A stretch of DNA of 64,000 bases, taken from assembly GCA_022835595.1 (NCBI GenBank), contig BQUP01000004.1, forward strand, positions 1,240,001 to 1,304,000, read 5' to 3'. The notes beneath the pieces were generated by a model, which was not told where the DNA came from, did no database searches, and saw only the letters and a list, made by a program, of their open reading frames with translations. A program made the position numbers and the translations under genes. Position 1 is the stretch's first letter, and every line of letters begins with the position of its first letter. This document shows, piece by piece, positions 2,468 to 7,612 of this stretch. This DNA comes from Cystobasidium ongulense. Its lineage: Eukaryota; Basidiomycota; Cystobasidiomycetes; Cystobasidiales; Cystobasidiaceae.

Positions 2468-4017
2468 ATGGCTGCCGCTAAACTGACTGCTACTGGGCGG
2501 CCTGAATTCAGCGCGTTGGAGTAGGTCGCTTGTCAAGTGGCGGACGTCGTGAAGCCGCCAGCTTGAAGAGGCAGAACTCGTCGCATGTACTCACGCCTGT
2601 CTGCTCTGACAGCTATTCCAAGTTCTTCACCGCTGGAGCACTATGCTGCACTCTCACCCATGGTCAGTCTGTCAAGCGGGGCAAAGAGCAAGAGCATGAA
2701 ATGCTGATTGACACGGATTGGGGTACCTTCAGGTGGAATGACGCCTATTGACGTTGTCAAGGTGTGCATTCAGAGCGTCTATACTAGAGGACTTCAGCTA
2801 AGGCCTAAGCTATGCAGACACGAATCCAGGTCGACCCTTCTCTCAAAGGCAAGAACATGCTAGTCGCCGGCAAGGATATAGTGGCAAAGTAAGCCTGGCC
2901 AGCTTCCCTTGTAGCGGTCGGCGTAGTGAAGATTCCATACTAACACATCCCTATCGTCCACAGGGAAGGTCTTGGTGTACTTCTAACAGGTTTTGGTGCG
3001 CTTTCTTCACCTCAGGTGGATTTTGACATAAGTCTGGCTGACACACTATCCGAATATTCTTCTTTTGCATCCTGCAGGTCCGACTGCATTTGGTTATCTA
3101 GTGCAAGGAGGAGCCAAGTTTGCAGGATACGAGTTCTTCAAAGCGAAAGCAGTAGATGCAGTAGGAGGTTATGATAATGCAGTACAATATAGAACACCAA
3201 TCTATCTAGGAGCATCGGCTATTGCTGAATTCTTTGCGGATATCCTGCTTACACCCTGCGAAGCTACTCGTATCCGACTAGTCAGTCAGAGAGGATATGC
3301 AACTGGTTTCCTCCCTGCTTTTGCTAGGATGGCTAGAGAAGGTGGTTTCAGAGAGTTCTACGCAGGGTAAGCGCCGTATTCGTTACTTGGATCTTGGCGG
3401 GCAAGTCTGCGTATATTGATGCCTCTACCACAACAGTTTCGTACCCATCCTTGCGAAACAAGTGCCATACGCTGTTGGACAATTCACCGTCAACGAGTGG
3501 GCGCACGAAACCGTCAACAAAAGCTTAGGCAAGGAGCGAGTAGAAGCGATGGGTGGAGGAATGTCGACCGTCGTCAATCTAGGGTGTGGTGTCGTGGCCG
3601 TGAGTCGGATCCTCGCATCTTGATGCACATCTTCACTTTGCTGAACTCGTTATATACTTCAAGGGTATCGCCGCTGCCATCATCTCACAACCAGGAGATA
3701 CGCTCCTCTCTCAGATTAACAAAGGAGAAGGTGGTCCAGGAAGCTCTACTTCAAAATTGATTCGTCTCGCTAAAGAAGCTGGCTTTTCTGGACTTTTCGT
3801 TGGACTGGGACCGAGAATCGTAATGACGGCCGGTCTCGTCAGTGGACAATGTGAGCCGCGTTCGATTTTCACTAGCTGACTCATAGTAAAACTCATATCT
3901 GATCTGAATATTCGTCGTGTTTTCCTTTGTTGCGCAGTTGTTCTTTACGGTGCTATCAAAGATATGCTCAAGAGTCCACCTGGTGTCGAAATCCACAAGG
4001 TCGAGGTCACTAATTAG
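2468..4017 (+). CDS. MIR1: Mitochondrial phosphate carrier
   Basis: This is a mitochondrial carrier family protein that imports inorganic phosphate with protons across the inner membrane for ATP synthesis. Nine exons can be joined in phase (2468-2520, 2613-2662, 2733-2761, 2818-2888, 2964-2995, 3078-3366, 3437-3599, 3664-3850, 3938-4017), giving 317 residues, the usual size. The first repeat reads [31 protein letters not shown], with the Px[D/E]xx[K/R] carrier signature. The second repeat holds ADILLTPCEATRIR and the third IISQPGDTLLSQI. The [16 protein letters not shown] region is typical of phosphate carriers rather than other carriers. One exon is only 29 bases. The gene is followed 300 bases later by MIA40 on the same strand, also mitochondrial. 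Confidence 0.93.
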
Positions 4018-4319: not shown

Positions 4320-5359
4320 ATGTTCGTCCGACCTGTCAGCAAGCGAGCAGCTCGCATAGCCCAGACGCTCCCATCATGCTCTTCATCAGCGAGAGCGGTG
4401 GGTGGTGTGCGCTTAGCCTCGAGTCAGATCCCGACAAAGAAACCGCCCCATAGAGTCGCAGGAGGCCAAAATTCCATGCTGGTAGGCTCGGCAGTCCTCG
4501 GTGCGACCCTGTTGCTTGGGTATGCGTTTGGACGAGGCGAGAATGTCGAACATGCTGCACATAGCACCCTGGGTGCGTGTTTCCTGCCTTGGTCAGACCT
4601 GGGAAGCCATTCCGTCGAATTGACGTGTATCAACGATGAGTAATTGGCTGATCTGGAGCCTGCGTCGCATTTGGCCATTTTATTATAACAGCATCAGCAG
4701 CTGCCAATGTAGATACAAAGGCACCATCGATAGTAAAGAAGAAGCTCGAAGAAGCGAAAGAGACCGTCTCAAGCCATATACCAAAGAGCTCTTCCAGCAG
4801 TACCGGAAGCCAGAAAACTACGCCACCTGCTGTCTCTTCGACAGGCGCAACCGAACCCGCCCCATCAATAGAAGAGGACAGAATATCAGTTACTTCATCA
4901 GTTTCAGATCCAGGATCGTTGTCTTCCTCGTCATCGGAAACAAGCGAAGAGGAGGAGGAAGAAGATCCAAGACAAGCTGCTTTCAATCCTGAAACTGGAG
5001 AAATCAATTGGGATTGCCCTTGTTTAGGTGGAATGGCACATGGTGTATGCGGCGAACAATTCAGAGAAGCTTTCGCTTGCTTTGTCTATTCTAAAGAAGA
5101 GCCAAAGGGACAGGATTGCATAGAAAAGTTTAGAGGAATGCAAGAGTGCTTTGCTGCCCATCCTGAAGTCTATGGTGAAGGTAAGCTGCACTATCTACTT
5201 GAACCGCCGAATGAGGGACAATCTTTGACAGTTTTTCGATGTGCAGTCATGGGCGAGGATGATGATGAGGAGCTCTCCGGCACGTCCGATGACGGTTCAG
5301 ACTACGATATAATTGAAGCTGTCGAAAAGGCCTTGACCGGTGATTCGAAATCAAATTAA
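4320..5359 (+). CDS. MIA40: Mitochondrial intermembrane space import oxidoreductase MIA40
   Basis: The exons 4320-4572, 4692-5180 and 5247-5359 join in phase to 284 residues. The N-terminus is basic and Ser-rich (mitochondrial presequence), followed by one membrane segment around residues 52-70 ([19 protein letters not shown]), a Ser/Glu-rich linker, and the catalytic domain. The domain shows the redox-active CPC motif (NWDCPCLGG) and twin Cx9C motifs, [11 protein letters not shown] and [11 protein letters not shown]. In fungi MIA40 is anchored in the inner membrane and oxidises small Cys-rich proteins in the intermembrane space together with ERV1. The acidic tail after the Cx9C helices is longer than in animal CHCHD4. 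The identification rests on motifs plus domain order and is firm. Confidence 0.93.
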
Positions 5360-5563: not shown

Positions 5564-7612
5564 TTACAACTTCTTCTCGCTTACTAAACGTATTCGCATG
5601 GGAATGCCGTTATTCGGTTGCGCCTGGAAAACATCGTTGCCGTAACCGTCAGCAAGGAGTGATCACGAAGAAACACGGGAAAGTAATAGTAACTCACAGT
5701 CAAACGGAATGTTTGATAAGGTTCACCTTCTCCAGCGTATTCGAAGTCGAACAGACGGACCTGTATAACAGCTTCCAATCAGTTGTGCACTGCGGGTACA
5801 GACCTTTATGAATTCACCGTCATAGCAAGGATGATTTTCTGTTCCATCAAGCCGAACTCCATGCCTATGCAGTTCTTCGGACGTAGAAGGATCACGAGAG
5901 AAATGAGCTTCAGGCAGGATACGAAGGTATTCATCGCCAGACTCATCTTTTGAAAAAGGTTGCCACGCCATGGGTGGAGCCATTACATTTCCCTGGTCAT
6001 CGATCCATCTTTCTGGCTTGAACATATCTGCGTCCTCGCCCCAGGTAGCTGTTGAGCGATCAAAATGTTAGATCTGCTATGTATGAAGCCTCATACGCGC
6101 AACGATACATACCTTTTGACCTGTGCAAACACCAGTGATTGACCCACAGCATGCATCCAGCCACAGAGTAGTTGGTACCCATATGCTCGACGACGTATAA
6201 TTCGCTATCCGCCTGTCTGACAGCTGCGGCCGGCGGGTATAATCTCAAAGCTTCTCTCATCACAGCGAGGGTGTATTTCATCTCGTTCAAGATGGTCGGA
6301 TCTTTGGCTATATAGCCACCCTCTCGGCCTATTGAATCCTTGCCTGCAAAGACATTATCGTGTTCTTCCCGCAGACGCTGAAGAACTTCCGGTTGTTGAG
6401 ATAAATGGTAGTATATCCACGCCAAAGTGCTGCTCGCCGTATCGTGTCCAGCTAGCACGAAAGTCTTGATTTGATCTATCAAAGTTGAAACGCCAAATTC
6501 TGGATGATTCGCCAAAGCCCAGTCGAGGACGTCTATTTTTTCCTTGTTGAGTAAGTCACTTTGCTTGCTATCGTCTATATGTTGTTGAACTTTTGGAGCC
6601 AGTAGGTCGTACATTTGTCTCGCACGACGCTTTTCTCCAATCTGATTTAAAGGCGTCAAAGTCGAGAACAATGCATTCACGACGCCAGTCTTGGATGCAT
6701 GCTCCAATTGACTATTGAGGACCGAGAGTAGTTGATTCGACAGTTGCTTATCGTAACTTCCGATAGTCACCCGCAGAATAAGATCCAAGGTGGCCTCTAC
6801 AAGGTAATCGGCCATTACTGCGGTCTGGCCATCCTTCGCTCGAATCTTGAGGGTATCGACAAAGTCCTGGCTGACTTGTACGATATCTTCAGTCCAAGAG
6901 CGTTCCAGGTGTCCCTATAGTAATGTTGCACGTGCCCAGTTGGGAGTGTGTCAGTGAAATGTCACAGCATATCGACTGAGCCTAGATTTAAATCATGTCA
7001 CCTTCTTGAAGCCAGGAGCTATAGACTTTCTAACAGTGCTCCAGTTCTCTTTGCCCTTTTCATCACTAGCAGCAAGAGCGAAACTTTCCTTACCGAATAT
7101 AGGAAAGTGAACCTTCATAGCACCTAGGCATTTAGGTAGATTATCAACTCTAACGATCTGATCAGCTATGCTAGGATCCGAGATGATACAAACGGGTAAA
7201 GCGAAAGGCCATAAATCTAGATAAACTAGACCATTTCCATAGCTTGTGGATATTGATTCGGCTGTATAGTCTATATGCTTGCCCTTGAAACTGGAAGCGT
7301 GGTCTGCAAAGGTCCGCAGATGACCGAATATGAACTCATGTGGAGGTCCAGGTAGACCTAGTTTCCTCCATCGCTTTCGGTGTCGGTACAGCTTGTATAT
7401 AAATCCGAGAAGAACAGGACATCCGATCGCCGCTGCATAGGCCACTGAAGTTGAGAAGCCAGGAAAACGGCAGGCATTGTCAGAATGTGAACATCAACTC
7501 TGCTAGAGAATGGTGAAGGGAAGCCAGTCCACTCACAGAGCAAGCGCCATGACAGACGCGGACCATCTCGCCACGGCCACAACAATGCCGCCAATCTCTC
7601 GCTTGCCTCCAT
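5564..7612 (-). CDS. Cytochrome P450 monooxygenase with an AT-AC intron in the heme loop
   Basis: Seven exons join in phase: 7612-7537, 7444-7002, 6914-6113, 6048-5947, 5882-5818, 5760-5698 and 5623-5564, giving 536 residues. The sequence shows an N-terminal membrane anchor (LAYAAAIGCPVLLGFIYKLY), a Pro-rich hinge (LGLPGPP), the I-helix AGHDTAS, the ExxR helix (EALRLYPP), FKPERW, and the heme loop FSKGPKNCIG with the ligand Cys at about residue 479. It is therefore a microsomal heme monooxygenase; the substrate is unknown. The heme loop exists only if 5946-5883, which starts ATGAGT and ends TAC, is removed. No GT-AG intron of the right phase lies there. An in-frame ATG also exists at 7795, but the start at 7612 puts the anchor near the N-terminus. 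Confidence 0.88.
5883..5946 (-). other. AT-AC intron (U2-type donor) in the P450 gene
   Basis: On the minus strand this 64-base segment begins ATGAGT and ends TTCTAC. Removing it joins AAA-G to GT-CCG and gives the exact P450 signature FxxGxxxCxG. CTCAT, about 20 bases from the 3' end, fits a branch site. The donor is a GTGAGT site with only the first base changed, unlike the ATATCC donor of U12 introns. Confidence 0.8.

Follow-up and report, generated by a model that had tools for sequence, protein, structure and literature searches.

A predicted AT-AC intron of the U2-dependent spliceosome in the heme loop of a cytochrome P450 gene of Cystobasidium ongulense

A cytochrome P450 gene of Cystobasidium ongulense is interrupted within its heme loop by a 64-nt segment with AT-AC ends (positions 5946-5883, minus strand), which is very probably (roughly 85%) a real spliceosomal intron removed by the U2-dependent spliceosome. 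Positions are those of the window, the whole stretch of 64,000 nucleotides that was analysed (contig BQUP01000004.1, positions 1,240,001 to 1,304,000). Removal of the segment, here called intron 4, restores the frame and the heme cysteine, and it was the best of all deletions scored by P450 homology.

Results

Structure of the P450 gene

The gene occupies positions 5564 to 7612 of the minus strand and has seven exons encoding 536 amino acids, with exon boundaries placed by eye from reading frames and homology. Its start and end were reproduced by an ab initio gene model run on 264 kb. The joined exons matched Pfam p450 with 188.3 bits, and the protein matched P450 chains in PDB, the best among the 60 matches listed being LUTEIN DEFICIENT 5, CYP4B1 and CYP3A4. 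With intron 4 removed the frame is open across 536 codons, and the product contains what we take to be the I-helix (AGHDT), ExxR, PERW and heme motifs. Both marks of membership in the cytochrome P450 family, the Pfam p450 match and an FxxGxxxCxG heme loop (FSKGPKNCIG), are found in the spliced reading.

GT-AG ends are present in five of the six introns, intron 4 being the exception. Intron 1 (7445 to 7536, GTGAGT..CAG, 92 nt), intron 2 (6915 to 7001, GTGACA..TAG, 87 nt) and intron 6 (5624 to 5697, GTGAGT..CAG, 74 nt), all on the minus strand as are the remaining introns and exons of the gene, were placed by exon joins together with the gene model. The donor tail of intron 2 (GTGACA) is very weak, with a percentile that rounds to 0 among 348 predicted introns. 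Intron 3 (6049 to 6112, GTATGT..CAG, 64 nt) served as a positive control for the junction test described below. Intron 5 (5761 to 5817, GTGAAT..CAG, 57 nt) was placed by exon joins, homology giving an approximate position only; its donor was set at 5817 by the gene model when all dinucleotide pairs were allowed and at 5803 in two other model runs. Intron 4 (5883 to 5946, 64 nt, phase 1) lies between exon 4 (5947 to 6048), which reads ATWGEDADMFKPERW...PFSK and was delimited by exon joins and PDB alignment, and the start of exon 5 (5854 to 5882), which encodes the remaining heme loop GPKNCIGMEF and was aligned with PDB P450 heme loops and with paralogues of the same genome. Convergent with the P450 gene is a predicted gene on the plus strand (4320-5359) whose product has a CPC motif and two CX9C pairs and was judged by eye to be similar to Mia40, a protein of mitochondrial import.

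Homology places the junction at AT-AC ends

Read on the minus strand, segment 5946-5883 is 64 nt long, starts with ATGAGT and ends with TTCTAC, exactly as given in the original prediction. Its excision produces ...MAWQPFSK/GPKNCIGMEFG..., which contains the FSKGPKNCIG that had been proposed, and the further claim that the heme ligand is lost with the segment kept also proved correct. With intron 4 retained the frame shifts, the FxxGxxxCxG motif is gone and the Pfam p450 match falls from 188.3 to 141.4 bits (the retained reading stops at the first stop codon).

The junction was chosen by P450 homology alone with no splice-site rule applied, using a profile made from nine heme-loop regions of the same genome and three from solved structures. 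A total of 18,032 deletions of at most 160 nt each were tested, of which 2,020 were dropped because fewer than 30 residues preceded a stop, and 16,012 were scored. Deletion of 5946-5883 was the top-scoring of the 16,012 with 67.9 bits, the runner-up reaching 62.0 bits and the highest GT-AG or GC-AG deletion 47.8 bits, or 20 bits under the best. The same deletion ranked first with the own-paralogue-only, the PDB-only and the combined profile. AT-AC ends occurred in 73 of the 18,032 deletions and a strong donor context in 5 of those 73; the top pick by homology is among these 5. The GT-AG control, intron 3, ranked 3, 7 and 10 across the three profiles and lay at most 1.4 bits below the top, while intron 5, a control in a less conserved part of the protein, ranked 38, 231 and 32, which indicates that the junction test resolves positions finely in the heme loop and more coarsely in other parts.

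Intron 4 compared with predicted introns of the genome

For comparison, introns were predicted with a small gene model whose training sequence was the window together with 200 kb of contig C4, 264 kb in all, and which yielded 351 introns in 71 genes; removal of the three that came from the P450 gene left a set of 348. This model replaced earlier scripted collections, one strict (49 introns) and one noisy (148 introns versus 39 in reversed sequence), and a first version of the model itself was discarded as introns were over-predicted. The predicted introns had a median length of 67 nt, GTRAGT-like donors, and CTGAC, CTGAT and CTAAC as the commonest branch sites (n=351).

The length of intron 4 corresponds to the 42nd percentile of the 348. 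Its 5' splice site, aag/ATGAGT (5941 to 5949), lies at the 99th percentile when the context is scored without positions +1 and +2, and its donor tail at +3 to +6, GAGT, is also the commonest among the predicted introns (80 of 348). The best branch score within intron 4 belongs to a branch-like site, CTGAA (5909 to 5913), at the 34th percentile of the 348; 24 of the 351 predicted introns likewise have CTGAA as their top-scoring site, the preferred form being CTRAY. The branch-like A precedes the 3' end of the intron by 27 nt, which is a normal distance, and the sole AG between this A and the 3' splice site TAC (5883 to 5885, taken from the sequence) directly follows the A. In its AT 5' end, its AC 3' end and a donor tail of U2 type, including G at +5, intron 4 agrees with a U2-type AT-AC intron.

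An intron that deviates from GT-AG at its first and last base only could also mark a recent pseudogene, in which a former GT-AG intron lost both end bases (G+1 to A, G-1 to C) and with them its splicing. We consider this improbable, as one change already breaks splicing and the second is the change expected to restore the second step. The donor context at the 99th percentile speaks against decay as well, and no damage is apparent in the remainder of the 536-codon frame, in the other five introns or in the P450 motifs.

Copies of the intron and paralogous heme loops

No other copy of the 64-nt intron was found in the genome, its sole match being itself, and among the 19 matches listed from a protein search of the genome, those outside the P450 gene were 26-40% identical. 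Neither a second allele nor a repeat source is therefore seen. P450 paralogues were collected with a strict heme-motif search, which gave three loops, and a looser one, which gave nine plus two unrelated matches that were excluded; as both searches detect uninterrupted loops only, 14 further short P450 stretches were added. The paralogue set is incomplete, the 53 fragments given by a Pfam search being a lower bound.

The heme loop was uninterrupted in 21 of the 26 other P450 loci, carried a GT-AG intron in three (L004, L021 and L047) and was unreadable in two (L046 and L058). None of the 24 readable paralogues has an intron at the exact position of intron 4. The intron of L021, read by eye, has the donor GTGAGT, shares the phase of intron 4 and lies 3 nt (one codon) upstream of it; that of L004, likewise read by eye, lies 2 nt upstream with the donor GTAGGT; and that of L047 (GTGAGT..CATCAG, 67 nt) lies 7 nt downstream. 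Because the exact position is not shared, a common origin of these introns with intron 4 is only possible. The three loci show that introns in the heme loop are not unusual in this genome, and the loop seems to be prone to them.

Gene modelling and the outcome of annotation

On the 264 kb the base gene model predicted 384 introns in 72 genes, 372 of them GT-AG and 12 GC-AG. When an AT-AC class was added to the model it was used once in 264 kb, at 5946-5883. Another 33 dinucleotide pairs tested singly were used zero to four times each, and the total gain from AT-AC ranked 28th of 34, so that the 264-kb sample holds no enrichment of AT-AC introns and ab initio scores, taken by themselves, cannot establish an individual case. 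The score of the P450 gene was 41.5 when intron 4 was AT-AC, 40.9 when no intron was called there and 42.3 when an AT-AG intron running from 5946 to 5865 took its place; ab initio scoring is neutral toward an AT-AC intron 4. When the model was free to use any dinucleotide pair, it took the donor at 5946 with an acceptor at 5877, six bases further, and AT-AC was unused; this run was noisy, as it misplaced intron 2 as well.

Two candidates with unusual ends were rejected. An AT-AG candidate at C4:1152839-1152901 is false, the stretch being in-frame coding sequence, and a GT-AC candidate on the plus strand of the window (3600-3657) is false since, by eye, an ordinary GT...TTCAAG intron suffices. 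That ordinary intron (GTGAGT...TTCAAG), in a gene which by eye resembles a mitochondrial carrier, has an AAG acceptor and not YAG, and had been misread by the model as GT-AC. On the minus strand of the window, two predicted GC-AG introns (18171-18109 and 17658-17591) both begin with GCAAGC and belong to genes of one region.

A model restricted to GT-AG introns retained 5946-5883 and mended the frame by placing the following donor at 5803 in place of 5817, with a complete frame and a P450 without the heme motif as the result; the loss of the heme cysteine under a GT-AG annotation had been foreseen in the original prediction. The same source had held that no GT within the segment reaches PKNC, which is true among the best GT-AG and GC-AG candidates listed. 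A GT outside of the segment does so: 5986-5947 (GTAATG...CAAAAG, 40 nt, 47.8 bits) is in frame to RPKNC and would leave PKNCIG in frame. We find it unlikely that the transcript is processed in either of these ways, by retention with the donor at 5803 or by GT-AG splicing at 5986-5947. Retention drops the heme motif, excision of 5986-5947 deletes VMAPPMAWQPFSK, conserved residues ahead of the motif, and both make for poorer P450 homology; in addition, an intron of 40 nt would fall below the minimum of 43 nt among the predicted introns.

Joining the donor at 5946 to the AG acceptor at 5865 is also in frame, and this AT-AG intron is taken by the model when allowed, with the slightly higher score given above. 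It would remove PKNCIG and with it the cysteine, producing a heme-less isoform, and A at +1 pairs best with C at -1 according to excerpts of PMC6726248. As the main product it is very improbable, though it could accompany AT-AC splicing as a minor isoform.

Spliceosome type

Intron 4 matched the U12 donor ATATCCTT at three of eight positions, its 5' splice site reading ATGAGTCT where a U12-type site has RTATCCTT. Against the U12 branch consensus TTCCTTRAC it reached six of nine, and six is the commonest best match among the predicted introns. U1 snRNA was found in the genome with a normal 5' end (AUACUUACCUG), and U1 and U6 both scored under their family cut-offs. Searches of the genome for U11, U12, U4atac and U6atac returned no match for any of the four, and as the same searches matched nothing in control genomes either, this argues only weakly for the absence of U12-type snRNAs.

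Removal of intron 4 as a U12-type intron by the minor spliceosome, for which the AT-AC ends would be suitable, is hardly credible. The tremellomycetes include Cutaneotrichosporon oleaginosum. It is the only fungus in which a survey detected RNA genes of the U12 spliceosome, as stated in excerpts of PMC7072748. Against this stand the 3/8 fit of the 5' site, the merely ordinary U12-like branch match, the four snRNAs that were not found (by searches blank in the control genomes too), and surveys which, in the text available, describe Basidiomycota as lacking convincing U12 introns (PMC10639083, PMC2846911). The original prediction that the gene relies on the U2-type AT-AC class is supported, for splicing as predicted, by the homology junction, the donor context, the length, the misfit to the U12 donor and the normal 5' end of U1; the branch-like site is average in score, and its distance from the 3' end agrees with the U2-type reading.

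The U6 snRNA gene (L024, minus strand, 1758-1501; about 2353058-2353315 of contig C1 of assembly G000) appears to be interrupted by no fewer than three introns of mRNA type, of 64, 64 and 60 nt (GTTAGT..CAG, GTTAGC..CAG and GTTAGT..TAG, boundaries set by eye on conserved sequence). The exons between them are 13 and 5 nt long, and one intron splits the catalytic ACAGAGA box (ACAG/AGA). Introns in fungal U6 genes are already known (work cited in excerpts of PMC5832005).

Discussion

If the P450 gene is expressed as predicted, U1 and U6 would recognise aag/AUGAGU through positions other than +1, in a context near the best of the genome. The first step of splicing would use the branch A of CTGAA, 27 nt before the intron ends. 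In the second step, A at +1 would be matched by C at -1, a combination second only to G-G in what yeast tolerates, and UAC would be preferred to the neighbouring AGs. Joining of the exons would then yield PFSK/GPKNCIG and restore the heme cysteine.

The rare U2-type AT-AC class has precedents in animals and has been described from fungi, and intron 4 is a well-supported predicted case of it, not a class of its own. Among the excerpts of published work available to us, PMC6726248 describes a mutated yeast intron in which, of the terminal pairs, only GT-AG is more efficient than AT-AC, notes that yeast has no U12 spliceosome and that some introns of the major spliceosome carry AT-AC ends, and cites Parker and Siliciano 1993 and Wu and Krainer 1997. 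The AT-AC protointron of yeast SUT635 and the mutated AT-AC introns of yeast use the major spliceosome in a U12-free fungus (PMC6726248, excerpts), as is predicted for intron 4, whereas intron 4 lies in a conserved coding region whose frame depends on its removal. In excerpts of PMC2831892, intron 21 of human SCN4A is an AT-AC intron that requires the major spliceosome, and G occupies +5 in the AT-AC introns of U2 type that sodium channel genes carry. SCN4A intron 21 (U2-type, class II) and intron 4 share AT-AC ends, G at +5, a U1-like donor tail and the lack of a U12 consensus, but intron 4 resides in a fungal P450 gene and its splicing is predicted.

In fungi as a whole, AT-AC accounts for 0.019% of annotated introns (PMC7072748, in excerpt); these belong to the same rare class, as annotation counts in which the spliceosome type is left open. 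For the basidiomycete Phakopsora, section 11 of PMC2846911, in the part available, reports two EST-based AT-AC introns that are not of U12 type, no U12 introns, and U4atac as the only RNA found. In Caenorhabditis elegans at least 42 AT-AC introns are suspected by the authors to be real (PMC3033335, excerpts); the host, as with intron 4, seems to be without U11, U12 and U4atac, while the introns differ in coming from an animal and in having been found through transcript alignments. Neither the P450 gene itself nor any tremellomycete AT-AC intron was found among the literature titles and abstract openings listed.

According to one view in the literature, the U2-type AT-AC introns found in animals descend from U12 introns (PMC2831892, excerpts). 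This origin, proposed for sodium channels, is harder to apply here since the fungal lineage seems to be without U12 splicing. We tentatively suggest, and would not press the point, that intron 4 may be an AT-AC intron without U12 ancestry which was either born as AT-AC or reached from GT-AG by paired substitution, in a U12-free lineage, and became fixed in an invariant enzyme motif. Of these two routes, a GT-AG ancestor with paired substitution is the likelier, given the nearby GT-AG introns of paralogues, one of them with GTGAGT in the same phase and one codon off. Were intron 4 of such an origin, its mis-splicing would destroy the activity of the enzyme.

Intron 4 offers a clean setting in which the A+1/C-1 rule can be tested, in a fungus seemingly without a minor spliceosome. 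Annotation limited to GT-AG introns yields a P450 deprived of its heme motif, and the same error may conceal other genes. Comparison of relatives could tell paired substitution from new gain of AT-AC introns.
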